Source of the DNA: Calditrichota bacterium
GTDB lineage: Bacteria > Zhuqueibacterota > Zhuqueibacteria > Zhuqueibacterales > Geothermadaptataceae
Direction of reading: 5' to 3'
NCBI GenBank assembly: GCA_008501765.1
Contig: QQUE01000008.1
Location: forward strand, 186,001-250,000
DNA length: 64,000 nucleotides
Below are positions 582-20,474 of this stretch, piece after piece (positions within the stretch are counted from its first letter, which is position 1; every line of letters begins with the position of its first letter). The notes beneath the pieces are model-generated. The model ran no database searches, was not told the DNA's origin, and saw nothing but the letters and a program-made list of their open reading frames with translations. A program made the position numbers and the translations under genes.

Positions 582-1058
582 ATGGTTCCAAAAGTGAGTG
601 TTAAGGAAGGCATTGCAGATAATCAAGAACATACACTCGAACATAAGCGACTTGGTGAAATTACATACCGGGATGAAGATATCATAACTTTGCCCCAGGG
701 ATTGCTTGGCTTTGAGAAAAGGAAGAACTATGTCGTAATTGATCGTGAAGATTATTATCCATTCGTCTGGATGATTAACACAGATGATCCAAATACCAGC
801 TTTGTCATGGTGAATCCCCTGTTATTTCACCAGGAGTATAATCCCAATGTTACAAAGCGTGATTTGAATGAAATTGAAATTGACAATCCGCAAAGCTTGT
901 TAATGTATGTTATTATAACGTTGAAACCTGATGCTTCACAATCAACCGCAAATTTGCGCGCTCCAATACTGATTAACATCGCAAAAAAACTTGGTAAACA
1001 GTTAGTATTACTCGATGATCAATACTCTACTAAACACCGGATTCTCAATCCTAAATAA
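582..1058 (+). CDS. fliW: Flagellar assembly factor FliW
   Basis: FliW is a cytoplasmic protein that binds flagellin and also binds CsrA as a non-competitive antagonist, which links filament assembly to translation of flagellin mRNA (established in Bacillus and Campylobacter). The 158-residue product has the family hallmarks: an early LPQGLLGFE motif, then YVVIDREDYYPFVWMINTDD and a LLMYVIITL strand. The start ATG follows an AGGAGA ribosome site. It sits between flgL and csrA, the classic order. An N-terminal extension of ~20 polar residues precedes the conserved domain. Identification is secure. Confidence 0.95.
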   Translation: MVPKVSVKEGIADNQEHTLEHKRLGEITYRDEDIITLPQGLLGFEKRKNYVVIDREDYYPFVWMINTDDPNTSFVMVNPLLFHQEYNPNVTKRDLNEIEIDNPQSLLMYVIITLKPDASQSTANLRAPILINIAKKLGKQLVLLDDQYSTKHRILNPK

Positions 1059-1082
1059 ACCGTCTTTCCAAAAGGAGTTTGT

Positions 1083-1346
1083 ATGCTAGTCCTGACACGG
1101 AGGTTGGGAGAAACAATTGTCATCGGCGACGATATAACAATCAAAATTGTTGATATACACGGAAAACAAATTCGGATTGGAATCGAGGCTCCAAAAGAAG
1201 TTAGTGTCTACCGTGGTGAAATATATGAACGAATTATGCAAGAAAATAAAGCAGCCGCTGAAGCAGCCAATGTCCAAAATGAAGATGTCACAGATAATAT
1301 GAGAAAACTTCTGCAGCAAAAAACCATTCCTGCAAAAGATGAATGA
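1083..1346 (+). CDS. csrA: Carbon storage/translational regulator CsrA
   Basis: CsrA is a dimeric RNA-binding protein that recognises GGA-containing hairpins in mRNA leaders and represses translation. The 87-residue product begins [18 protein letters not shown] and continues with [19 protein letters not shown], which contains the RNA-contacting beta-strands and the conserved Arg of the VYR motif. A tail of ~25 residues beyond the core (rich in Ala and Asn) is longer than in enterobacterial CsrA; long tails are common in species with FliW. A strong AAGGAG site precedes the ATG. It is probably the last gene of the flgL-fliW-csrA unit, since a terminator follows directly. Confidence 0.96.
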
Positions 1347-5362: not shown

Positions 5363-6493
5363 GTGGAAAAAAGTGAAATTAAGAAAGCCATAATCACCGG
5401 AATTACCGGGCAGGACGGCAGCTATCTTGCCGAACTTCTACTCGAGAAGGGCTATGAAGTCCACGGGTTGGTGCGACGCAGCAGCTCATTCAATACCCAC
5501 CGTATCGAGCATCTGTTTCAGGATCCCCACGAAAAAGATGTTCGCTTGCATTTGCACTACAGTGATTTATCCGACTCGAGTAATTTGGCGCGGTTGCTTT
5601 ACCACATCAAACCTGACGAAGTCTATAATCTCGGCGCGCAAAGCCATGTGCGCGTGAGTTTCGATATGCCCGAGTTTACAGCCAACGTGACAGCGATGGG
5701 CACGGTGCGCCTGCTTGAAGCCATCCGTGAAACCGGGATTGACACACGTTTTTATCAGGCATCCAGCAGCGAAATGTTCGGCCGCGTGCAGGAAGTTCCG
5801 CAAAAGGAAACGACCCCATTTTACCCCTGCAGCCCTTATGGTTGTTCAAAAGCATTTTCCCACTGGACGACGGTCAATTACCGCGAAAGTTACGGTCTCT
5901 TTGCTGTCAGCGGAATTTTATTCAACCACGAATCGCCGCGCCGGGGGCAGACATTTGTAACGCGCAAAATTACCCGGGCGGTCGCTAAAATTAAGGCTGG
6001 ATTGCAAAACGAACTTTTTCTCGGCAATCTCGAGGCGAAGCGGGATTGGGGATATGCGAAAGAATATATCGAGGCAATTTATTTGATGATGCAGCACGAT
6101 CAGCCGGATGATTTTATTCTCGCGACGGGGGAGACGCATACCGTAAAAGAATTTGTCGAACTGGCATTTGAAATCGCCGGGCTCGATTGGCAGAAATATG
6201 TGAAGATTGACAAGCGCTATTTTCGCCCCACCGAAGTTGATTTGCTCATCGGGGATGCGCGCAAAGCGAAAGAAAAACTGGGCTGGCAGGCCCGTACTAA
6301 ATTCGAAGATTTGGTGCGGCTCATGGTTACCTCTGATATTAAATTATTGCTGCAGCAGCTCGCAGGCGAACAAGACGTGCATGTCGTTGATACACCAGAA
6401 TTTATGAGCAACGATTTGGCCGTACAAACTATGCCTGTTTCAAGCGAAAATGGAATAAGCCGTGAAGATGCACTGGAAAGATTAACGAAATGA
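5363..6493 (+). CDS. gmd: GDP-mannose 4,6-dehydratase
   Basis: Gmd converts GDP-mannose to GDP-4-keto-6-deoxymannose, the branch point to GDP-fucose, perosamine, rhamnose and colitose. The 376-residue product is a short-chain (extended SDR) enzyme. The NADP motif is [20 protein letters not shown], the serine/glutamate loop is SSSEMFG, and the catalytic pair is Y159-x3-K163 (YGCSK). The family signature [17 protein letters not shown] is intact. The start is a GTG with only a weak upstream site. A ~30-residue tail after the fold is unlike typical Gmd. It overlaps the next gene by 4 bases, indicating coupled translation with the enzyme that probably uses its product. Confidence 0.95.
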
Positions 6494-7701
6494 TGCCTGA
6501 ATTTAAAACAGCACTATCGCGGAAGCAAATTGGTGTTGGCTGTTTGCAAATATCTGATTTGGCACGGCACTATATTGACGAAGCGCTTGATGCCAACCGG
6601 TTGTCGATCGGACCGTTTGTGCATCGCTTTGAAGATGAATTTGCACAGAGCCACGGCTGTCGATTTGGAATTATGGCGAACAGTGGCACTTCGGCATTGC
6701 AAATTGCGCTCGCAGCCTTAAAAGAAAAATACGGCTGGGATGATAACGACGAAGTCATAGTTCCCGCGATCACATTTATTGCAACGTCAAATGTGGTTAT
6801 TTATAATCAGCTTAAACCAGTTTTTGTCGATGTAGACCAGTTTACGTACAATATTGATCCCGAGGTGATTGAAAAAGCGATCACCCCGCGAACCCGGGCG
6901 GTAATTCCGGTGCATCTCTTTGGCCTGCCATGCGATATGCAGCCAATTATGGAAATTGCCCGCGCAAAAAATCTCGCTGTTCTCGAAGATTCCTGTGAAA
7001 CCATGTTTGCAAAATATCGTGGGCAGTCCGTCGGTTCATTCGGTGATGCAGCCTGTTTTTCGACATACGTTGCTCATATTCTCGTCACCGGCGTTGGTGG
7101 ATTGGTGACATGCAATAATCCGGAAATTGCAACGATGTGCCGCAGTTATCTTGCTCACGGCCGCGATGAAATTTACCTGGATATCGACGCTGATAAAAAT
7201 GCTGATGCAAATCTGGCGAATATCATCGATCGCCGATTTTCATTTGTACGGCTCGGCCACAGCTTCCGGCCAACAGAACTGGAAGGCGCTCTGGGATTGG
7301 CGCAATTGCAGGAAAGCGAAGACAATATCAACAGTCGGCGAATGAATGCCCAGTATTTAACCAGGAATCTCACGCCATTGATCGCAAAGATACAGCTCCC
7401 GGTAACGCCGTTCGAGCGTGAACATTCATTCATGATGTATCCGATTTCCGTTTATAAAAAAGGGGAGAGGGAAAAACTGTGCCTGCACCTGGAAAAAAAT
7501 GGCATTGAAACACGCTACGCTTTTCCGTTGCTCACCCAGCCGGTTTACAGAAAAATGTTTGATCAAAATATGGATGATTTTCCTGTCGCTAAAACTGTTG
7601 GGGAAAATACATTCTATATCGGTTGCCATCCGGAGCTGGAAACAAGTGATTTGGATTATATCGTTGAAAAATTTAATGAATTTTATCAAACCACAAATTG
7701 A
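6490..7701 (+). CDS. DegT/DnrJ-family PLP enzyme with His replacing the catalytic Lys (ColD-like 3-dehydratase)
   Basis: The 403-residue product has the sugar aminotransferase fold: [12 protein letters not shown] near residue 60, the [11 protein letters not shown] region, and the glycine loop [11 protein letters not shown]. Where aminotransferases have the PLP-linking lysine (S-F-x-x-x-K), this protein reads FSTYVAH, giving His196. A His at this site is the hallmark of GDP-4-keto-6-deoxy-D-mannose 3-dehydratase (ColD) and of the CDP-sugar enzyme E1; these remove the 3-hydroxyl instead of transaminating. It has no C-terminal iron-sulfur cysteines of the E1 type. Gmd directly upstream would supply ColD's substrate. 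Substrate assignment is inference; the His substitution is seen directly. Confidence 0.82.
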
Positions 7702-7733
7702 TCACAGACAATCGATCAAATTTAAGGATTAAA

Positions 7734-8765
7734 ATGAGTACAAAATCGCAAACAATAGCTGTATTAGGCGCAAACGGCTTTGCCGGCCGCCATATTTGTC
7801 AGTCATTATTGGAAAAAGGTGAAATCGTTCACGGTTATTCGCGTTCTTGCCCCGAAGCGCTGCTGCAAAATGGCAATTTTACTTATTATGAATGCGATAT
7901 ATCCAAAGCAAACTCACTGGAAGGCAGTTTGCAATATGACTGCCTGATCAACGCTACAGGACGGGTCGCGGGAGTGGGCTATAATTCGCACCATCATCGC
8001 GAAATGGAAACAGGCAATTTTCTTTTAATGATGAATGCTGCCGATTTAGCCTACGAACAAGCAAAATACTTTATTCAGATTTCATCGGCATGTGTTTATG
8101 CCAACGAAGTAAGCGAAGGCGCTGATGAAAGCCAGGGTTTTGTCGATTTACCTGATCCTGCGAATCGCGGCTACGGCATTGGCAAACGGAAAGGCGAAGA
8201 ATATACAAAGTTGCTTTTTGCAGGGCAATCCCGCGCTTTCACCATAATTCGGCCTTACAATCTCTATGGCCCGGGCGATGACTTTTCTGAAAAATCACAC
8301 GTCATTCCAGCATTGATTAACAAATTATTGTTTGAGGAAAATGTGGATGTCTGGGGGGACGGCACTCAGTTACGGGAGTTTGTTTACGTCAAAGATTTGG
8401 CCGGATGTATTTCACAAATTGCGGCGGAAAAACCGAATGGCGTGTTCAATATTTGCGGTGGAAAAGAAAATATCCTGTCAATCCGGGAGCTCGTCACCGA
8501 ATTGGAGAATATCATCCAATCGGGTAAAAATATATCTTTTGGCGACACAGGGCATACGGGCCAAATACGCAAGTATGGCAATAATAAAAAAATGCAGGAT
8601 TTAGGCTTACGATTGCAAACACCGATTGACATCGGACTTCGTGAAACTGTTTTGTGGCGCTTGCAAACATTGGAAAATCAACCCGAATTCGTCGATGCAA
8701 TTGTCGATAATTCTCCGCAGGCGCAAAATGAAAATCAAGCCAAAGGTGTTACATCCGAGTCTTAA
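7734..8765 (+). CDS. NAD(P)-dependent epimerase/reductase, GDP-fucose synthase/ColC-like
   Basis: This extended SDR protein (343 residues) has the nucleotide motif GANGFAGRHI, the serine strand ISSACVYA and a YGIGK catalytic pair. The stretch NLYGPGDDF...SHVIPALI and VWGDGTQLREFVYVKDLAG closely matches the GDP-L-fucose synthase (GMER) signature. In a pathway with Gmd and a ColD-like dehydratase, the expected role is ColC: epimerisation at C5 and reduction at C4 to give GDP-L-colitose. The ORF track starts at a TTG (7698), but the ATG at 7734 has an AAGGA site 6 bases upstream and is the better start. Telling ColC from GMER or a 4-reductase needs biochemistry. Confidence 0.8.
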   Translation: MSTKSQTIAVLGANGFAGRHICQSLLEKGEIVHGYSRSCPEALLQNGNFTYYECDISKANSLEGSLQYDCLINATGRVAGVGYNSHHHREMETGNFLLMMNAADLAYEQAKYFIQISSACVYANEVSEGADESQGFVDLPDPANRGYGIGKRKGEEYTKLLFAGQSRAFTIIRPYNLYGPGDDFSEKSHVIPALINKLLFEENVDVWGDGTQLREFVYVKDLAGCISQIAAEKPNGVFNICGGKENILSIRELVTELENIIQSGKNISFGDTGHTGQIRKYGNNKKMQDLGLRLQTPIDIGLRETVLWRLQTLENQPEFVDAIVDNSPQAQNENQAKGVTSES

Positions 8766-9017: not shown

Positions 9018-9704
9018 ATGAAAGTGGAAGTTGAAAACCAATACACAAATTTATTTTTTGAAGAGTATAAAGATATCCACTACGGTCAGTCGGCCATAAT
9101 TTTTGGCAGCGGACCGTCTCTGAATGAATGGGAAGACAACGAATACCCGGATGTTATCCGGGCGGGTGTAAATGAGTTGGTTTTTACGCCAATCCTACTC
9201 GATTATTATTTTTCTGGCGACAGTCAGGAAGTGCATCGACCGGGTACTTTCGCCAAAAATAAACAAGCTTATTATGACTATCTGCCGCGAATTCAGAAAT
9301 TTATTCGCAAGCAAACGTGGGGTGAACGTGGTGCGCTGCCGCGGGATATTTCAAATGCGGTCTATTATTGGTGCGATCTGACCAGCACACCGGTGAAAGA
9401 TATTTCCACTCAACCGGTCGGATGCTGTGCTTCGATCTCGTTTGAAGCTTTGCAATTCTTATTGTATGCCGGAATCAAGCGGGTTTACCTCGTGGGCCAG
9501 GATTGTAGCTATAATAAAGGCACTTTTCGTTCGGCAACCGCCAACGACCCATTCCACATAACCTGTGGCAATGATATGCTGGTTGACTGGCAAATGATCC
9601 ACGACCAGTGGCTGCCTGAAAATTACCCGGATGTTGAGATTTTTTCCATCCGTCCTGTCGCCTTAAAAACATTTCCAGAAGTATCCCAGAATGAAATCAG
9701 ATAA
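9018..9704 (+). CDS. Maf/DUF115-like protein, probable flagellin glycosylation factor
   Basis: This 228-residue cytoplasmic protein begins, after ~20 residues, with a Rossmann-like strand and loop (SAIIFGSGPSLNEWE) and has a second motif, VYLVGQDCSYNKGTF, near residue 155. Both patterns resemble the MptE-like/DUF115 domain found in Maf (motility-associated factor) proteins, which transfer nonulosonic acids or other sugars to flagellin, and in related sialyltransferase-like enzymes. It is shorter than full Maf proteins (usually ~600 residues), so it would be a stand-alone core domain. The family assignment is from motif memory. Its place between sugar-biosynthesis genes supports a glycan-transfer role. 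Confidence 0.6.
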   Translation: MKVEVENQYTNLFFEEYKDIHYGQSAIIFGSGPSLNEWEDNEYPDVIRAGVNELVFTPILLDYYFSGDSQEVHRPGTFAKNKQAYYDYLPRIQKFIRKQTWGERGALPRDISNAVYYWCDLTSTPVKDISTQPVGCCASISFEALQFLLYAGIKRVYLVGQDCSYNKGTFRSATANDPFHITCGNDMLVDWQMIHDQWLPENYPDVEIFSIRPVALKTFPEVSQNEIR

Positions 9705-12311: not shown

Positions 12312-13016
12312 ATGGAAAAAAGATTAGTCGCCACGCGGTGCGATGAAAATATCGAAGAAATGACAAGTCTTACGCATCCCATCATCAAAAAATTTTGTCA
12401 GAAATGGCACGCTGATTTCGTCTGCTTAAGCGGTGATTTCAGCTTTGTGATGGATTATGAGGGTTGGATGAGTTACCGGATTTTCGAGGTGAACGATTAT
12501 TTTGATAAGTACGATCGTGTTTTGAGCCTTGATTCGGATGTCGTTTTGAGTCCACAATGCCCCAATATTTTCGAAATTGTGCCGCAGGGAAAAATTGGTT
12601 CAATTTACGAAGATGTCGGCTCTCGTCAAACAATGCGACATCAGTCCATCCGCAATGTACAGAAAAAATGGGGTGATGTTGGCTGGAAAACCGGATATAC
12701 CAATAGCGGTGTTATGGTTTTTGATAAAGCGCATCAAGAAATGTTGCGGCCGGTGAACGGCGAATATTGGCTCGGCTGGGAGAGTGATGATATTCATTTG
12801 GGATATCAAATCAATAAACTGGATTATGAAGTTTTTCAGTTGCCCTTTCAGTTCAATCACATGTGCATGTTTTCCGAGCCGTGGAACGGCAGCCCGAACA
12901 GGTTTCTTTCTTATGTCCTGCACTACGCAGGCGCTGCGACTTTTCCCGGTAGTGCGGGTAAAAAAGTTGAGAAAATAAGCAAAGATATTGATGTTTTATG
13001 GCAGGGAGCGTTTTGA
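12312..13016 (+). CDS. GT8-like nucleotide-sugar glycosyltransferase
   Basis: This 234-residue soluble protein resembles GT-A glycosyltransferases of the GT8/glycogenin type. It has the metal-binding D-x-D in VLSLDSDVVLS near residue 74 and the downstream NSGVMVFDKAHQEML motif that closes the acceptor site. Near the C-terminus, SYVLHYAGAATFPG supplies the late His expected to bind metal. It lies between the radical SAM gene and the GAPDH-like gene with short gaps, so it is likely part of the same transcript. Donor and acceptor are unknown. Confidence 0.72.
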   Translation: MEKRLVATRCDENIEEMTSLTHPIIKKFCQKWHADFVCLSGDFSFVMDYEGWMSYRIFEVNDYFDKYDRVLSLDSDVVLSPQCPNIFEIVPQGKIGSIYEDVGSRQTMRHQSIRNVQKKWGDVGWKTGYTNSGVMVFDKAHQEMLRPVNGEYWLGWESDDIHLGYQINKLDYEVFQLPFQFNHMCMFSEPWNGSPNRFLSYVLHYAGAATFPGSAGKKVEKISKDIDVLWQGAF

Positions 13017-13023
13017 TTTAGTT

Positions 13024-13079
13024 GAAAGTTTGAACCTTTAAACCTTTAAACCTTCCAACTTTTAAATGTTCAAACTTTC
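13024..13079. repeat. Perfect 12-bp inverted repeat between genes
   Basis: GAAAGTTTGAAC and GTTCAAACTTTC form a perfect 12-bp stem around a 32-base loop that itself holds direct CTTTAAAC repeats. It fills the gap before the GAPDH-like gene and could act as an attenuator or be a dispersed repeat. There is no T-run after it, so a standard terminator is unlikely. Confidence 0.55.
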
Positions 13080-13099
13080 AAACCTAACTTTGGAGTATT

Positions 13100-14152
13100 A
13101 TGCTGCGTATTGGAATGAACGGATTTGGGCGTATTGGCAGAGCAATTTTTCGAAATAATCTGGCAAAGGACGCGTTTAAAGTCGTCTCGATAAATGACAT
13201 CAACCCGGATATTAGCAATATCGCCTATCAGCTGAATTATGACACCCTCTATGGTCAGCTCGACGATAAATATTATGCGGTCAATGATCATCTTTGCAAT
13301 AATCAGGATAAAATAAAAATTTACAATCAGCCCCATGTGGATACAGTTCCCTGGGAGAACGAACAGGCAGATATAATTATCGATGCATCCGGTGTTTTGG
13401 ATAATGTTTTACGGGCACCGCAAACTCTTGTTAAACATAATCTTAAAAAAGTGATGATTACCCATTCACCAGATGAAGTTGATTTCTCGATGGTGCTTGG
13501 CGCCAATGAAACGGAACTCGATTTGACCCGGCATCATGTCATTTCGACGAGTATTTGTGACGCCACTGCCCTTGGCCCGGTGTTAAAAATTATTCATGAA
13601 AATATCGGCATTCGCAACGGCTACATCACAACGCTGCATCCATGGCTCAATTATCAAAATTTGATGGATGGGCCAGCCAGTTCGTGGTCGGTTCCCGGGA
13701 CGATTTACCATCATTACGCGCTCGGCCGCTCCGTTATCGGCAACATGATTCCCAAACCGACATCCGCGATAGCTGCAACGTGCAAGGTTGTCGATGGCGT
13801 CACCGAAGGGATGATAGGCTCGTTTTCCTACCGCACACCAACAGCCATCGTCGGCAGCGCGGATATTACTTTGAACCTGAAACAATTCTCTTCAAAAGAG
13901 CAGATTTTGTCGCTTTTTGTTGCTGCAGAGAAAAAACAACGCTGGAAAATCATCCGCAACAATTTTGTACCGCTCGCGTCTCTGGACTACAAAAGCAGCG
14001 ATTCGTCGGCCATTGTCGATCACCGTTGGACGGAGGTTTTGGGGGATGACATGTTGAAACTGGTTTTATGGTACGACAACGAATGGGGTTATTCTGCGCG
14101 GGTTATCGATCAGATTTTATACGTTGAAGAAAAAATGAAAGAACAATTATGA
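13100..14152 (+). CDS. GAPDH-like aldehyde dehydrogenase paralogue with altered active site
   Basis: The 350-residue protein has the complete GAPDH layout. It starts with the NAD motif MNGFGRIGRAIFRNN and continues with INDIN, IIIDASGV and a C-terminal WYDNEWGYSARVIDQI. The catalytic segment reads STSICDATALGP where GAPDH has SNASCTTNCLAP. The nucleophile is kept (Cys153) and so is the proton-relay His (TTLHPW), but the T-T-N of the phosphate site has become D-A-T. This points to an oxidoreductase for another aldehyde, perhaps a sugar-derived one. The gene overlaps the next by 4 bases (ATGA). It is unlikely to be the housekeeping enzyme because of its cluster position and changed motif. Confidence 0.85.
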   Translation: MLRIGMNGFGRIGRAIFRNNLAKDAFKVVSINDINPDISNIAYQLNYDTLYGQLDDKYYAVNDHLCNNQDKIKIYNQPHVDTVPWENEQADIIIDASGVLDNVLRAPQTLVKHNLKKVMITHSPDEVDFSMVLGANETELDLTRHHVISTSICDATALGPVLKIIHENIGIRNGYITTLHPWLNYQNLMDGPASSWSVPGTIYHHYALGRSVIGNMIPKPTSAIAATCKVVDGVTEGMIGSFSYRTPTAIVGSADITLNLKQFSSKEQILSLFVAAEKKQRWKIIRNNFVPLASLDYKSSDSSAIVDHRWTEVLGDDMLKLVLWYDNEWGYSARVIDQILYVEEKMKEQL

Positions 14153-14895
14153 ACGAAAAGTTAGCGGTCGTCATACCGGCGCGGCTGGGCAGCAAAAGGG
14201 TGAAAGCAAAAAATTTGCGTAAACTCAATGGTAAAACCCTGATCGTAAATATGATCGAAAAATTGCAGCAAACGCAGTATTTGCAGAATATTTATATCAA
14301 TTCCGATAGTGAATTGTTCGGCGCAATCGCGAATCAGAACAAGGTAAAATTTTACCAGCGACAGCCGGAACTGGCCACCAGCGAGTCGCTCATCGACGAT
14401 TATATTTTTGACTTTATTAGCCAAATTCAGCCAGAATTTTTGGCCGTGGTCAACTCGACATCGCCATTTATTTCGCCGGAAGCATTGGACAATGCGTGGC
14501 TTTCTTTTCAAAATAATAATTTTGATACACTGCTCTCGTGTGAAAAGATTCAAACCCACTGTTTTTATAAAGGCAAGCCGGTAAATTTTTCAATCGATGG
14601 CAAGCATCCGCGTTCGCAAGATTTGGAACCGGTGCGGGCGCTGAATTTTGCGATCACAATTTGGAATTGTCAGCGGTATATCGAAAATTATGAATCCAAA
14701 AATTATGGTGTGTACACAGGCAAACTTGGATTTTATGATATCGAAGGAATTGGCTGCATTGATATCGATTATGAGGACGATTTTCAGATGGCTGAATTTG
14801 TATCCCGTTACCTGCAAAATGAAAATAATATACCAGTTGTGTACGATGACGTTGCTGCACAGCTAATCGAGAAAAATGTTGATTTTGCAAATTAA
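14149..14895 (+). CDS. Acylneuraminate-type cytidylyltransferase (CMP-sugar synthetase)
   Basis: This 248-residue enzyme should activate a keto-acid sugar or similar acid with CTP. The N-terminal nucleotide-binding motif IPARLGSKRVKAKNLRKLNG is the signature of NeuA/PseF/LegF enzymes. The later segments LAVVNSTSPF and IDIDYEDDFQMAE carry the Asp residues that hold Mg and the sugar acid. It is translationally coupled to the GAPDH-like gene. No NeuB-type synthase for sialic, legionaminic or pseudaminic acid is visible here, so the substrate is either made elsewhere or is something else produced by neighbouring dehydrogenases. Confidence 0.85.
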   Translation: MNEKLAVVIPARLGSKRVKAKNLRKLNGKTLIVNMIEKLQQTQYLQNIYINSDSELFGAIANQNKVKFYQRQPELATSESLIDDYIFDFISQIQPEFLAVVNSTSPFISPEALDNAWLSFQNNNFDTLLSCEKIQTHCFYKGKPVNFSIDGKHPRSQDLEPVRALNFAITIWNCQRYIENYESKNYGVYTGKLGFYDIEGIGCIDIDYEDDFQMAEFVSRYLQNENNIPVVYDDVAAQLIEKNVDFAN

Positions 14896-14924
14896 AGTGA
14901 AATCATGAAAGAATAATTGGAAGA

Positions 14925-15533
14925 ATGACCAATTTACAGCCTAAAAATATACACTGCCTCGCATTGAATTATCAGGGAGTTGGCATCACAAAAATTGAAC
15001 CGCTGTATTTTGTGAAATCGGCGCACGCCCTGTGTTTCGATGGCGCCAGGATTGAATACCCTGAAAAATGTCTGAAATTATGGACTGAAGTGGAGCTTGC
15101 GCTGGTTGTAAAAAATAATTGTATAAATATATCCGCAGAGGAAGCGCCGGACTTTATTTCCGGATATACAGTAGCAGCGGATTTGACCTGTGAAAATATT
15201 GCAAACCGGGATCATCATTTGGCCTATTCCAAAAGCAGAAAAAACTTTTGCCCCGTGCAGCCCGATGTGGTCACTTTGCAGCAAATTGATTTATCGGAAC
15301 TTAGATTGACGACAGCAATAAATGGCAAAATAACCCAAACCGGTGATTTATCACAGATGCTTTTTAATCCCTTTAAATCACTAAGTTATATTTCGCAAAT
15401 TACAGAGTTATGTCAGGGAGATATCGTGCTTACAGGAACCCCGGCGGGTGTTGAAAATAATATTATCCGGAAGGGGGATCGTGTACTCCACTGGATTGAA
15501 AATATTGGCAATTTAGAATATGAAATCATCTAA
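14925..15533 (+). CDS. Fumarylacetoacetate hydrolase (FAH) family protein
   Basis: The 202-residue protein has the FAH fold used by acylpyruvate hydrolases, oxaloacetate decarboxylases and hydratase/isomerases. WTEVELALVV carries the E-x-E metal ligands and FISGYTVAADLTCENI the following Asp. The end has LTGTPAGVENNIIRKGD, the strong family signature. Such enzymes act on 2-keto or 2-enol acids. Its stop overlaps the next gene by 14 bases. Its occurrence inside a glycan island is unusual and suggests chemistry on a keto-acid intermediate shared with the adjacent cytidylyltransferase and hydroxyacid dehydrogenase. Confidence 0.82.
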   Translation: MTNLQPKNIHCLALNYQGVGITKIEPLYFVKSAHALCFDGARIEYPEKCLKLWTEVELALVVKNNCINISAEEAPDFISGYTVAADLTCENIANRDHHLAYSKSRKNFCPVQPDVVTLQQIDLSELRLTTAINGKITQTGDLSQMLFNPFKSLSYISQITELCQGDIVLTGTPAGVENNIIRKGDRVLHWIENIGNLEYEII

Positions 15534-16494
15534 AGTCTGGATTACGGATTACATAAAAAATCCGGATATCGAGAAGCGAATTCTGGGCGATTTTCTCAGT
15601 GCGGAGTCCCACGACGATATCGAAATAGTGCTGGTCTGGCATGAAATAATCGATGACCATTTTTTCGATAAATTCCCTCGCTTAAGGGCTGTTATTCGCT
15701 ATGGTGTAGGTTATGATAATATTGATCTTACGGTAGCAAATGAACGCCATATTTATGTCTGCAATACCCCGGATTACGGCACCGAAGAAGTCGCTGATAC
15801 CGCGCTCGCAATGATGGGAACCTTGACTCGGGGAATATTATACTACCAGGAATTGGCAAAAAGCCTTCCCCGGGATTGGCAGGAAAATACTATCGGTAGC
15901 TTGCGCCGGAGTTCTGAACTCAAACTTGGCATTATCGGCGCTGGCCGTATTGGCAGCTCGGTTATTCTTCGGGCCAATGCGATGAATTATAAATCCTGTT
16001 TTTATGACCCATACAAAGAAAGTGGTTATGAAAAAGTGTTGGGAGCACAACGCGTCGATTCAATTGATGCCCTTTTAAAATTGGCTGACATCGTCTCAAT
16101 TCATTGCCCATTAACAGAGGAGACGCGGCACATGGTTACCACCGATTTTGTCAATAAAATGAAATCCGGGAGCTATTTGATAAATACGGCGCGCGGTAAA
16201 ATAGTGCAGGATTTGGATGTACTTTATGCGCCATTGCAGGATAATAAACTGGCAGGAGTCGCACTCGATGTTTTGCCAAATGAACCTCCAAACAACGATT
16301 CATTATTGATTCGAGCGTGGCAGAATAATGAAAACTGGTTGTGCGGACGATTTATAATAAACCCGCACACTGCTTATTTCAGCCGGCAATCTTTTTCAGA
16401 AATGCGCGAAAAAGCCGCGAAAAATGCCCTGCGAGTCCTGCAGGATCAAAAACCTGTCAATGTCGTTTCTGAGTGCAGTACGTTAGCGATTTAA
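15520..16494 (+). CDS. D-isomer-specific 2-hydroxyacid dehydrogenase (SerA/CtBP-like)
   Basis: This 324-residue NAD-dependent enzyme interconverts a 2-hydroxyacid and a 2-keto acid. The dinucleotide motif is GIIGAGRIGSSVI. The substrate-binding Arg is in NTARGKIV, and the catalytic His is in NPHTAYFS, with a Glu upstream in LPNEPP. It lacks the ACT domain of biosynthetic SerA, so it is not simply serine synthesis. It overlaps the FAH gene by 14 bases and is the last enzyme of the small-molecule module. Together with the FAH-fold protein it implies a 2-keto acid or 2-hydroxyacid intermediate. Confidence 0.87.
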   Translation: MKSSKVWITDYIKNPDIEKRILGDFLSAESHDDIEIVLVWHEIIDDHFFDKFPRLRAVIRYGVGYDNIDLTVANERHIYVCNTPDYGTEEVADTALAMMGTLTRGILYYQELAKSLPRDWQENTIGSLRRSSELKLGIIGAGRIGSSVILRANAMNYKSCFYDPYKESGYEKVLGAQRVDSIDALLKLADIVSIHCPLTEETRHMVTTDFVNKMKSGSYLINTARGKIVQDLDVLYAPLQDNKLAGVALDVLPNEPPNNDSLLIRAWQNNENWLCGRFIINPHTAYFSRQSFSEMREKAAKNALRVLQDQKPVNVVSECSTLAI

Positions 16495-16545: not shown

Positions 16546-18387
16546 ATGATGAGTGAGAAAAAAATGAGTGAACGAAAACAGCAGCGCGTTTGCGCCATAG
16601 TCTCCGGGTATTTTGGAGCTGAAAAATTAAATCAATGCATCAGTAGTTTATTGCCTTCCGCCCATGAGATTGTTCTAATTGACAGTGAAGAAATTGCTGC
16701 TGATATTCTGAGTCATACGAGCGTAACCGACTACCGTAAAAAGTCGCTAAATGATGCGATTACAAAATTAATGCAACGCCCGGATTCCGAGCGAGCAGAT
16801 TGGTTGTTTTATCTCAATGCCAACGAGGAGTGCAGCGCAGATTTTGGAGAATTATTTAACTATTTAGCCAAACGACCAGCGCATATTGCCGCAGTTCAGC
16901 TGGCCGTGAGCTCAACCGGAAAGAATGGGAATATTGAATATGCCAATTTTGAAAACCGCTGTGTACGAATGAATGCACAGCCCGGAACTGGATTCCTGAA
17001 TCGGTTGCAGTTTGAAGGGGAGTCGCAGCAACACAAGTCAATTTTTATTAACCGCCACCTGGATCGGATTAACAAAGATGCATCCTCGCCTGTTTTTACA
17101 CGCATGCGCGACGATGCAGTGCGATATTGGGAACGGTGCCCTGAAGATCTGGCTGCGGTATTTTCATTTTACCAATTTCTTCATTGGATCGAAGATTACG
17201 ATGAAATTGTCAATAATTGCGTTAGTACAATTGCGAACCATCTGCAAAAAATCGAAGCAAATTCGGAATATTGGGGTTTCTTTACTATTTGGGCAGAAGC
17301 CTGTTACCAAAAAAAGGAGATCGAAAAATTTACAACAGTGTTTGATCTCGCTAAAAATACGCTTCCTGCGAAAAATCTCGATTTTATCTATATTTCTTGC
17401 CTGCAGGCAAAATTGGCAAATAATCCGGCGGCAGTGAATTCCAATTCCGAATTGTATATTTCAAAGCTCAAATCCGTTTTAAACAATAAATTCAATATAG
17501 CAAAAAACAGCTTGCACACCTTGAAATTTGAGGAAAATATTCGATCGATGCGAATTTCCAGCCTCGCTACGCTTGAGAAATGGCAGGCTGTTTACGCTGG
17601 TTTGCGCCAACTTGGTACTGTGCCTTCATTTGACGAATCAAAAGCAGGTGATCTTTTGCAGGAGATGCAGTTTATTCCAGGTGATAAATTGAGTACAATC
17701 CTCACCATCTTGTGGAAAAAATTCACCACACCAGGATTTGTCCTCGAAACATTAAAAGTTTTTCCTCTCGAATCATTAAATCAAAAAGGCCGGGATTTTC
17801 TCGAAGAGAAACTGGTGCCGGGTTTCAGAGAGCAGAAAGATTATGATGCCGGAATTTTATTCATGCAATTGGGTCTGTACCAGGACGCGCTCGATATATT
17901 TTTAACCTATCAAACTGATCCGGGTGTTGGGGAAGGAGCCATGTTTAATGCGGCACAAATGTTTCTTGAACTCGGCTATTTTGAAGATGCCATCAAGATT
18001 CTAAATGCCTTGCTGCAGGAATATCCAGCCAATTATGATGCACGTTTGTTGTTCGAAGGTCTGAAACCGGATGTCGGGGATGTTTCGGAATCAACGGCAG
18101 AGGCAGATGATGAAATCGAAGGAATTTTGCTCGAAGCGGTTGAGGCCATTGCCCACTATTCTGAAAAAAGGAAATACGATCCCATCTATTCCATCGTGAA
18201 ACAAGTGCACGACGTCCTGGCTCCCTATAGTGAACTTAAAGTTGAAATTTACGATGATTTGCCGGGAGCATTTATGCGCATCGAATCGCTGGCTATTTCC
18301 CATTGTTATCTCAAACTGGCAGACGAAGTGCAAAAGTTAAAATCTTCGATTAAAATCGATGAATCCGCCGGTAAAATAAAGCAGTAA
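16546..18387 (+). CDS. TPR protein with degenerate GT2 domain
   Basis: The 613-residue protein starts with a GT2-like segment (residues ~12-110). The metal-binding D-x-D-E found in its neighbour (DADERL) is replaced here by NANEECS. The N-terminal strand is present (VCAIVSGYFGAEKLNQCISS), but the nucleotide Asp pattern is weak (IVLIDSEEIA). Residues ~180-600 are helical repeats, with clear TPR units near 430-510 (DALDIFLTYQTDPGVGEGAM). It may be a pseudo-glycosyltransferase that binds flagellin or the partner enzyme downstream. Three ATG codons (16546, 16549, 16564) are possible starts. The next gene follows 23 bases later. Confidence 0.7.
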   Translation: MMSEKKMSERKQQRVCAIVSGYFGAEKLNQCISSLLPSAHEIVLIDSEEIAADILSHTSVTDYRKKSLNDAITKLMQRPDSERADWLFYLNANEECSADFGELFNYLAKRPAHIAAVQLAVSSTGKNGNIEYANFENRCVRMNAQPGTGFLNRLQFEGESQQHKSIFINRHLDRINKDASSPVFTRMRDDAVRYWERCPEDLAAVFSFYQFLHWIEDYDEIVNNCVSTIANHLQKIEANSEYWGFFTIWAEACYQKKEIEKFTTVFDLAKNTLPAKNLDFIYISCLQAKLANNPAAVNSNSELYISKLKSVLNNKFNIAKNSLHTLKFEENIRSMRISSLATLEKWQAVYAGLRQLGTVPSFDESKAGDLLQEMQFIPGDKLSTILTILWKKFTTPGFVLETLKVFPLESLNQKGRDFLEEKLVPGFREQKDYDAGILFMQLGLYQDALDIFLTYQTDPGVGEGAMFNAAQMFLELGYFEDAIKILNALLQEYPANYDARLLFEGLKPDVGDVSESTAEADDEIEGILLEAVEAIAHYSEKRKYDPIYSIVKQVHDVLAPYSELKVEIYDDLPGAFMRIESLAISHCYLKLADEVQKLKSSIKIDESAGKIKQ

Positions 18388-18410: not shown

Positions 18411-20474
18411 ATGCCCAAAAAAAATAAAACTGAAAAAACGAAATCGATAAACACAAACTTCGCCAAAAAGGCGCCGGGAAACGCAAGATTATCCGTTTGC
18501 ATGATCGTTAAAGATGAAGAGAAAATGCTGCCGGAATGCTTAGAGAGTGTGCACGGATTGTTTGATGAACTGATCGTTGTCGATACAGGGTCGTCGGATA
18601 ACACAGTAGCAATAGCCGAGAAATTCGGAGCCGTTGTTTACCATCATCCATGGGAAAATAATTTCAGTTTGCATCGCAACCAAAGTATCGAATATGCCAC
18701 GGGCGACTGGATTTTGCAAATCGATGCGGATGAGAGACTCGACCTAAGAAGTGTTTCATTATTACGTGAAACCATCGAAAACGCACGCGATGATGTCGAA
18801 GGATTTTGTGTTGTAATTCAGGACTACAAAAAAGATGGTAAGCAATCTGTACGATTCAACTATCCGCGGATTTTCCGCAACAATGTGGGTGTGAAATACG
18901 AATCGGCCGTGCACAATCAGGTAATCATAAAAGGAAAAGTCGATTTTTCGGAAATCCGCATCAATCATTTTGGATATGATCTGGATCCAGAATCTATGCT
19001 GAAAAAATTCAAGCGTTCCGTGCGGCTCCTGCGCAAAGAAGCCCGGGAAAATCCGGATGATCCACGCGCCTTTTATTATCTCGCTAATGCGTATTCCCAG
19101 TATCAAAGATTTGACAAAGCGATTATTTATGCGAAGAAAACACTCGAAATACTGCGCAAGATGCCCAGTGCACCTCCTTATTATTTATCAATTTATCACG
19201 GTTTGATCGGTGGGCTCATCGCAAACAAAAATCTCGACGAAGCCAGGGAAGTTTGCAATGAAGCCTTGCAAGTGCGGCAGGACTATGTCGATGTTTATTT
19301 TCATTTGGCGCGCATAAATTACATGCAAAAAAAGTTTGATGCCACAATTGAAGCGGGCAAAAAATATCTGGAATTAGCGCAATTTTACAATGAAGATGCT
19401 TCGCGGTTAGAGATCATAAATTACTATACATTAGACCGCGTCTATCGCATTAATTTCTGGCTTGGAATTTCCTTTTTTGCTAAAAATGATTCAGTACGCG
19501 GCATGCAATTCATCGAAGCCGGGTTGGCGGAAAAAGAATCTGATCATGCCAATGTGCTGGAAATGATTCATAATTCATTTGCAGTCGCTCCTTATGAAAT
19601 TGTGAAAGAAATTGTTCAGAAAACTTTTGACCGCTACAAAGAATCGCCCGCCTTTTTCTATTTTCTCATTCAGGAATTAAGCAGCATTGATATGCTGATT
19701 TTACTGCCGCAACTCGTGGCCACTCTCGACGCCGATGCTGCGATCAGGAAGGATGCATTTGCGCACATAATTTATCATCTGAGCAAAGAACAAAGTGAGC
19801 ATGCATTAAAATGTGCGCAAGAATTTGATGCGTTTAGTGAGAAAAAAATACATGCGTCACTGTGCGAATTTGTACTACAGCACTCTGAAAATAAATTGAT
19901 GCCGGTGCCGAAAAAATTGCAAGATCAATTTCCATTGCTTGGTTTTATTCATTTGGTAAATGGGGTGATGTCAGATGAAATGAGCCAGATTGATATGAAT
20001 CAGGTTGATGCTCTCCAAACGAATGACAACCAAAGTCTTGAGTTGAAAATGATGGCAGCTCTGCTGCAATTATACAATTCGATCATCTTGAATGACGTTG
20101 ATAATCTCGTTAAAAATGTGGTTTCATTAATCCAGCTGGCAGACTTCAGCGAAGACCCCGTTTTAGAGGATATTGAAGACTTGAAGCGAATACTTGTGGA
20201 TTTTATCCAAAAAGCGGATCGACTTCTTTGCCCGGACGCGGGCGATCTCGCCATTAAAATTGCCGAGAATTTCTTCAGCGAGGATCCGGTTTTTATGAGT
20301 TTTAAATACCGGCGGGAGATTATTCGGGCAAAACGACGCGGGCCGTATGGTTTCTTTCTCCGCTTGTACTTCAAATATTTAATTCTGCCAAAAAGGGAGT
20401 GGTATTCGGACAAAGCGAGTCAAAACTTCCCGCATCCGAAATCTGATGCGCCAAACGCCTTGCTACAAAATTAG
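18411..20474 (+). CDS. GT2 glycosyltransferase with C-terminal TPR region
   Basis: The 687-residue protein has an intact GT2 domain (residues ~27-250): LSVCMIVKDEEKMLPECLES, VDTGSSDNT and the metal-binding IDADERLD near residue 104, with the acceptor segment WENNFSLHRNQ. Helical TPR repeats follow (FYYLANAYSQYQRFDKAI at ~220), then a long helical tail of no recognised family. This architecture is common in enzymes that glycosylate flagellin or pili, where TPRs present the polypeptide acceptor. It is the last gene of the island. The ATG has a poor ribosome site, so translational coupling to the gene above is possible. Confidence 0.85.
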   Translation: MPKKNKTEKTKSINTNFAKKAPGNARLSVCMIVKDEEKMLPECLESVHGLFDELIVVDTGSSDNTVAIAEKFGAVVYHHPWENNFSLHRNQSIEYATGDWILQIDADERLDLRSVSLLRETIENARDDVEGFCVVIQDYKKDGKQSVRFNYPRIFRNNVGVKYESAVHNQVIIKGKVDFSEIRINHFGYDLDPESMLKKFKRSVRLLRKEARENPDDPRAFYYLANAYSQYQRFDKAIIYAKKTLEILRKMPSAPPYYLSIYHGLIGGLIANKNLDEAREVCNEALQVRQDYVDVYFHLARINYMQKKFDATIEAGKKYLELAQFYNEDASRLEIINYYTLDRVYRINFWLGISFFAKNDSVRGMQFIEAGLAEKESDHANVLEMIHNSFAVAPYEIVKEIVQKTFDRYKESPAFFYFLIQELSSIDMLILLPQLVATLDADAAIRKDAFAHIIYHLSKEQSEHALKCAQEFDAFSEKKIHASLCEFVLQHSENKLMPVPKKLQDQFPLLGFIHLVNGVMSDEMSQIDMNQVDALQTNDNQSLELKMMAALLQLYNSIILNDVDNLVKNVVSLIQLADFSEDPVLEDIEDLKRILVDFIQKADRLLCPDAGDLAIKIAENFFSEDPVFMSFKYRREIIRAKRRGPYGFFLRLYFKYLILPKREWYSDKASQNFPHPKSDAPNALLQN

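Follow-up and report, generated by a model that had tools for sequence, protein, structure and literature searches.

A 64,000-nucleotide stretch of a Calditrichota bacterium genome (contig QQUE01000008.1, positions 186,001 to 250,000 of the forward strand; hereafter the window) encodes four adjoining genes that form a variant of a widespread, apparently undescribed module. We tentatively read this module, in an assignment that we regard as plausible if short of probable, as an oxidative route to a CMP-activated ulosonic-type acid that resembles the Epd and PdxB steps of vitamin B6 synthesis and is independent of NeuB and KdsA. The genes encode a GAPDH-like dehydrogenase (GAPDHL), a CMP-sugar-synthetase-like cytidylyltransferase (CMPS), an FAH-fold enzyme and a D-2-hydroxyacid dehydrogenase (HADH). 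In the CMP-activated sugars known to us, namely sialic and other nonulosonic acids and Kdo, the keto acid comes from a NeuB or KdsA condensation. In the route proposed here, GAPDHL would oxidize the aldehyde of an aldose phosphate to the aldonate, probably without phosphorylation, and HADH would oxidize the C2 hydroxyl to a ketone, much as Epd and then PdxB act in vitamin B6 synthesis. A HAD phosphatase, encoded next to the module in many relatives, would strip the phosphate, the metal-dependent FAH-fold enzyme (elsewhere an HpcH/HpaI aldolase) would tailor or extend the 2-keto acid, CMPS would load CMP onto it, and a CMP-sugar-dependent glycosyltransferase would deliver the product to a surface glycan, in the window probably that of flagellin. 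The sequences themselves show which gene families are present, which catalytic residues they keep, how far the module is conserved, which of its parts are exchanged and that NeuB is absent; the reactions, their order, and the substrate, product and acceptor we infer. A wider proposal, possible in our view and held with greater reserve, is that these loci form a widespread modular class that makes a 2-keto acid with a dedicated GAPDH subfamily and HADH rather than by phosphoenolpyruvate condensation, and in which pairs of synthetase and FAH-fold enzyme or synthetase and HpcH are swapped to give different acidic surface sugars. A preliminary description of these genes, made from the DNA alone, knew of no described pathway with this set in a flagellar glycan locus, and our searches of the open-access literature returned no description of the gene set, of CMP-ulosonate routes of this kind, or of related flagellin glycan genes.

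The module occupies positions 13100 to 16494 of the window:

13100..14152, + strand: GAPDHL, GAPDH-like dehydrogenase of a distinct subfamily, 350 amino acids (Pfam, invariant signature)
14149..14895, + strand: CMPS, CMP-sugar-synthetase-like cytidylyltransferase of clade A, 248 amino acids (PF02348, profile match to 1eyr and 1qwj, tree)
14925..15533, + strand: FAH-fold enzyme, 202 amino acids (PF01557, alignment)
15520..16494, + strand: HADH, D-2-hydroxyacid dehydrogenase, SerA/PdxB/CtBP-like, 324 amino acids (PF02826/PF00389, matches to Protein Data Bank (PDB) structures)

The GAPDHL and CMPS reading frames overlap by 4 bp (ATGA), a gap of 29 bp separates CMPS from the FAH-fold gene, and the FAH-fold and HADH frames overlap by 14 bp; the preliminary description had proposed just such a unit of genes overlapping or at most 30 bp apart, and the Pfam matches agree with the families it had named. 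None of the four proteins passes the cut-off of any NCBIfam equivalog model.

Within the phylum, strong relatives of GAPDHL are present in 4 of 82 genomes, these being the source genome, a congener (G104) with the same locus at 83%, and two distant members of the same class with the order GAPDHL, HAD phosphatase, FAH, CMPS, HADH; because the distribution is patchy, it suggests horizontal transfer. A wider collection of genomes was scanned with the GAPDHL segment alone, using the patterns GYITTLHP and WL[SN]YQNL[VM] and making no use of neighboring genes, and this returned 39 loci, distributed over more than a dozen phyla: KSB1, Chloroflexota, Omnitrophota, Verrucomicrobiota, Pseudomonadota including SAR86, Chlamydiota, Bdellovibrionota (Oligoflexia), Myxococcota, Actinomycetota, Bacteroidota, Elusimicrobiota, Lentisphaerota, Deferribacterota, Bacillota and Cyanobacteriota. 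Profile searches of six-frame open reading frames place both CMPS and HADH within 7 kb of GAPDHL in 32 of the 38 usable loci, the window included; the exceptions are L043, L047 and L052, with neither CMPS nor HADH, L046 and L067, each missing one partner, and L060. CMPS is nearby in 33 of 38 loci (p ~4e-51 at a chance rate of 2%, which is an assumed rate, with relatedness ignored among loci that are not all independent). Conservation of a core of GAPDHL, CMPS and HADH is well supported. The preliminary description had proposed a search for conserved neighborhoods of all four families and named the lack of any conserved gene order as an outcome that would refute it; conservation far outside the source genome was found, with these three genes as the core and at least two alternatives, FAH and HpcH/HpaI, in the remaining position. 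Searches with GAPDHL gave no match at 1e-50 among plasmids and, among phages, only matches of at most ~32% identity, as expected of ordinary GAPDH, and a search of E. coli genomes with the module DNA of L074 found no match.

The GAPDHL proteins are one subfamily in which the catalytic residues are kept and two phosphate-site residues are invariantly changed. The window protein matches Gp_dh_N (9.8e-25) and Gp_dh_C (1.1e-21), and the aligned sequences conserve the catalytic Cys (37/37) and the catalytic His (38/38) and have an enlarged S-loop. In 37/37 sequences the Cys is preceded by Ile and followed by Asp, where GapA, compared through a manually entered sequence, has Ser and Thr; this I-C-D triplet lies outside the search patterns, whereas the invariance of HPWL[SN]YQNL is partly due to them. 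In GAPDH, the flanking Ser and Thr are residues of the inorganic-phosphate site. GAPDHL has the Cys and His expected of a type I phosphorylating GAPDH, and the replacement of the phosphate-site Ser/Thr by Ile/Asp suggests a non-phosphorylating reaction. The source genome encodes a separate canonical housekeeping GAPDH (PF02800, 238 bits versus 79 for GAPDHL). HADH (2-Hacid_dh_C, 4e-42) carries the Arg/Glu/His catalytic residues. Both enzymes score far under the cut-offs of the curated models for their vitamin B6 counterparts (162.6 versus 530.55 bits for GAPDHL and Epd, 73.7 versus 434 bits for HADH and PdxB), and an assignment of the module as Epd/PdxB proper was rejected on these grounds.

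The likely product of the module is a CMP-linked acid. CMPS matches CTP_transf_3 (3.4e-21) and, by profile, the NeuA/CSS structures 1eyr and 1qwj; with these structures aligned, the clade A synthetases keep the PRSQD and IDID motifs. The N-terminal nucleotide-binding motif and the C-terminal DID metal motif of the PF02348 superfamily are both present. CMP synthetases of the NeuA family are known to use 2-keto acids, and the NeuA-type PRSQD and DID motifs suit such a substrate. In a quick tree with SH-aLRT support only, the module synthetases fall into clades A (9 sequences, including that of the window), B (5) and C (19); all three have good support and consist solely of module members. KdsB and the NeuB-linked synthetases lie outside them, and the source genome encodes a separate KdsB-type synthetase. 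In a related observation, another member of the same phylum (G013; L028:2-2185) has a CMPS that is 40% identical to that of the window, has a partial cupin domain, and adjoins a 3-dehydroquinate-synthase-like protein and a short-chain dehydrogenase/reductase, with no GAPDH-like gene; these genes possibly make a CMP-activated cyclitol or other acid.

The third enzyme of the module is exchangeable. An FAH-fold protein is found in 14 loci and HpcH/HpaI in 12, and the two co-occur in L070 alone (1 locus with both, 13 with FAH only, 11 with HpcH only, 7 with neither; p = 0.003); a further divergent PF01557 protein, in L045, is additional to the 14. The window protein (FAA_hydrolase, 3.6e-43) keeps the metal-ligand motif E-x-E...D and has no His-Glu lid dyad when aligned to a manually entered FAHD1 sequence, and the module FAH family shares an RD[HW]HLxxSK motif. 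The module HpcH proteins retain the conserved aldolase-family residues His, Arg, Glu and Asp. Elsewhere, the source genome encodes one HpcH/HpaI protein, on another contig, and two further FAH-fold proteins. Clade B synthetases are always accompanied by HpcH, and L059 and L062 are similar to the window in their GAPDHL (64 and 62% identity) and HADH (52 and 54%) but carry a clade B CMPS (27 and 25%) with HpcH. From such locus counts we infer that GAPDHL and HADH are a constant pair, while synthetase and third enzyme are exchanged together. HAD phosphatases are common in module loci, and two kinds of them, HAD5 and HAD7, tend to exclude each other (p = 0.02). Some loci (L068, L071, L074 and L075, the last from Cyanobium sp. 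ATX 6A2, a named strain with a genome that is not metagenome-assembled) encode GAPDHL, CMPS and HADH with neither FAH nor HpcH in the DNA covered. In these, the carboxylate could come from GAPDHL alone and the 2-keto group from HADH alone, and this gene content points towards an aldose phosphate that is oxidized, then dephosphorylated and linked to CMP.

Several loci add further variation. Three from Prochlorococcus single cells (L061, L065 and L070) have closely related GAPDHL genes and CMPS of three different clades, A, B and C, and are a case of cassette exchange within one lineage. An Oligoflexia locus (L056:9554-15889) has a B12-radical-SAM protein and a ketol-acid reductoisomerase homologue at the usual place of FAH or HpcH, and an HMGL-like (PF00682) protein, of another pyruvate-aldolase type family, adjoins the module in two unrelated bacteria (L076:4068-5720 and L077:12996-14603).

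A standard nonulosonic acid pathway is very unlikely in the source genome. This assembly (5.92 Mb, 98.9% complete) contains no NeuB; its only PF03102 match, ruled out as NeuB, is a DAHP synthase of 337 amino acids encoded beside trpA- and prephenate-dehydrogenase-like genes. The preliminary description had noted that no NeuB-type synthase is present, an absence that holds for the whole genome, and had named nonulosonic acid synthesis genes just outside as a finding that would undo its reading. The congener likewise has a DAHP-type PF03102 match only, and no NeuB match was obtained in G086, G089, G090, G097 and G108, whose assemblies may be incomplete. Where NeuB does occur in other loci, it mostly has its own synthetase nearby, and six loci (L039, L048, L054, L068, L071 and L077) each hold both a module synthetase and a NeuB-linked one. 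The suggestion that the CMP-linked product may not be a standard nonulosonic acid is supported. In other loci with nonulosonic acid genes, the module mostly carries a cytidylyltransferase of its own that is distinct in phylogeny. In some other organisms, the module may nonetheless be functionally tied to nonulosonic acids.

A transferase suited to a CMP-linked product is predicted in some relatives. In four Bacteroidota loci (L063, L066, L068 and L071), HADH is adjoined by a protein without a Pfam match, c17, for which a profile search against PDB sequences gave no match. Its AlphaFold model (pLDDT 86.5, pTM 0.86) best matches the bacterial polysialyltransferase 5wcn (E 8.4e-10, TM 0.60); its top fold matches include further sialyltransferases as well as unrelated GT-B enzymes. 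This predicted fold supports a CMP-activated donor in these four loci. For proteins of ~600 amino acids encoded 3′ of HADH in several loci, the predicted structure was poor (pLDDT 62) and its GT-B matches unspecific, and these proteins were not used as evidence.

In the window, the module lies within a glycan locus whose relevant neighbors are:

12312..13016, + strand: GT8-type glycosyltransferase, directly upstream of the module (PF01501)
16546..18387, + strand: protein with C-terminal tetratricopeptide repeats (TPRs), 51 bp 3′ of the module, 613 amino acids; candidate glycosyltransferase, unproven
18411..20474, + strand: GT2 glycosyltransferase with TPRs
9018..9704, + strand: small protein with a GSGPSL motif (sub-threshold PF01973, Maf/MptE-like); weak candidate for a CMP-sugar transferase
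5363..8765, + strand: GDP-mannose 4,6-dehydratase, DegT aminotransferase and epimerase/reductase; probable GDP-amino-sugar genes
582..1346, + strand: fliW (582-1058) and csrA (1083-1346); flagellar context

Among the proteins of the locus are DegT aminotransferases, a B12-radical-SAM protein, and GT8, GT9-like and GT2-TPR proteins. The small protein matches PF01973 at 4e-7 (30.4 bits, under the cut-off of 34.6), and a genome-wide search did not recover the match. Maf flagellin glycosyltransferases have PF01973 as their central domain and use CMP-nonulosonic acids as donors, with CMP-Kdo accepted as well in two cases (PMC11339370). The assignment to a flagellar glycan locus stands insofar as flgL, fliW and csrA lie directly 5′ of the glycan genes, a position from which the locus likely decorates flagellin; the flagellin gene itself is on a different contig, with no glycan genes recognized beside it, and most of the homologous loci are general surface-glycan rather than flagellar loci. 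Two short flagellin fragments that resemble a broken second copy adjoin the intact flagellin gene (L086:5909-7816, contig C6 of the same genome). The spacer 5′ of the GAPDHL gene (13017-13099) is A/T-rich with recurring 'aaccttt/tttaaacct' words, and a simple scan of the module region for promoters and terminators found nothing persuasive.

Several observations weigh against an oxidative, NeuB-independent route. Of 30 module genomes, 25 contain a NeuB match above threshold (~24 once the DAHP-type match of the congener is set aside). NeuB lies within 10 kb of the module in ~10 loci, and in L062, L065 and L072 there is no second synthetase in the DNA covered. FAH or HpcH is found in most loci, where the keto acid may instead be built by aldol chemistry, and the loci lacking both may encode them elsewhere, the contig of L074 being only 5.5 kb long. 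The window has no HAD phosphatase adjacent to the module, and neither a c17-like protein nor a clear CMP-sugar transferase was found in it. Finally, an IspD-type cytidylyltransferase and a PF04464 TagF-like protein are encoded beside GAPDHL in L047 (by Pfam), with homologues of both in L043 and L052. These three loci are from Verrucomicrobiales and Acidimicrobiia; TagF-like proteins being CDP-glycerol glycerophosphotransferases, their gene content hints at a CDP-linked variant.

The main rival is an aldolase route, in which FAH and HpcH are interchangeable metal-dependent pyruvate-enolate enzymes that replace NeuB or KdsA and join pyruvate, or hydroxypyruvate derived from HADH, to an aldehyde supplied or removed by GAPDHL, with CMPS activating the resulting 2-keto acid. 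The near-exclusive occurrence of FAH and HpcH, the residues that each retains (with the hydrolase lid dyad missing from FAH), the unfailing company of clade B synthetases and HpcH, and the mixed gene content of L059 and L062 all favor this route; we nevertheless consider it somewhat unlikely, as several core loci have neither enzyme, the route does not account for GAPDHL and HADH being constantly present, and we know of no FAH-fold enzyme that acts as an aldolase. It is less likely still that GAPDHL and HADH make a small hydroxy acid of the glyceric or tetronic type as an acyl substituent of an amino sugar such as perosamine, with CMPS activating this acid in a new way or serving a separate step. 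Hydroxy-acid acyl groups are known on bacterial amino sugars, and the GDP-mannose 4,6-dehydratase and DegT aminotransferase of the window suggest a GDP-4-amino sugar; against this, CMPS keeps the motifs of a family whose known substrates are 2-keto acids, the four genes have no CoA ligase or N-acyltransferase next to them, and c17, the best-modeled neighboring transferase, is sialyltransferase-like. An ordinary pathway, with CMPS activating a legionaminic or pseudaminic type acid that the other genes decorate, would fit the frequency of NeuB in module genomes and the best NCBIfam match of CMPS, PseF (68 bits versus a cut-off of 205.7). Given the NeuB-free genomes and the separate synthetases of NeuB clusters, we judge it improbable. 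That unrelated metabolic genes came together next to a glycan locus by chance might be entertained, since each protein belongs to a large and versatile superfamily, but recurrence of the same core across phyla has already refuted it and leaves it virtually no weight.

If the oxidative route is correct, a CMP-acid module free of NeuB and KdsA would be a further branch of sugar-nucleotide biochemistry. It would also assign a role to a GAPDH subfamily that has been overlooked, and acidic sugars so far unrecognized would be expected on many uncultured bacteria, Prochlorococcus and SAR86 among them. The module has partial counterparts in four known systems. It shares with nonulosonic acid pathways (NeuB/LegI/PseI plus NeuA/LegF/PseF, and Maf) CMP activation by a PF02348 enzyme, a setting in glycan loci and, in some relatives, sialyltransferase-like transferases, but differs in the NeuB-free source genome, the constant GAPDHL and HADH, and the separate synthetase clades. 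The CMP-Kdo pathway (KdsA, KdsC and KdsB) follows a comparable logic of acid, HAD phosphatase and PF02348 synthetase, whereas the module has no KdsA-type step and its CMPS falls outside the KdsB clade. Recruitment of a GAPDH paralogue to a special pathway, encoded beside its partners, has a parallel in the ArsJ-associated GAPDH, the model of which GAPDHL matches at 200 bits (cut-off 450) and which has other partners and another active site. Finally, Epd and PdxB of the 1-deoxy-D-xylulose 5-phosphate-dependent vitamin B6 pathway likewise couple a GAPDH-family aldose-phosphate dehydrogenase to a dehydrogenase of the PdxB/SerA superfamily, and the module is set apart from them by far lower model scores, changed phosphate-site residues, and its place in glycan loci beside a CMP synthetase.

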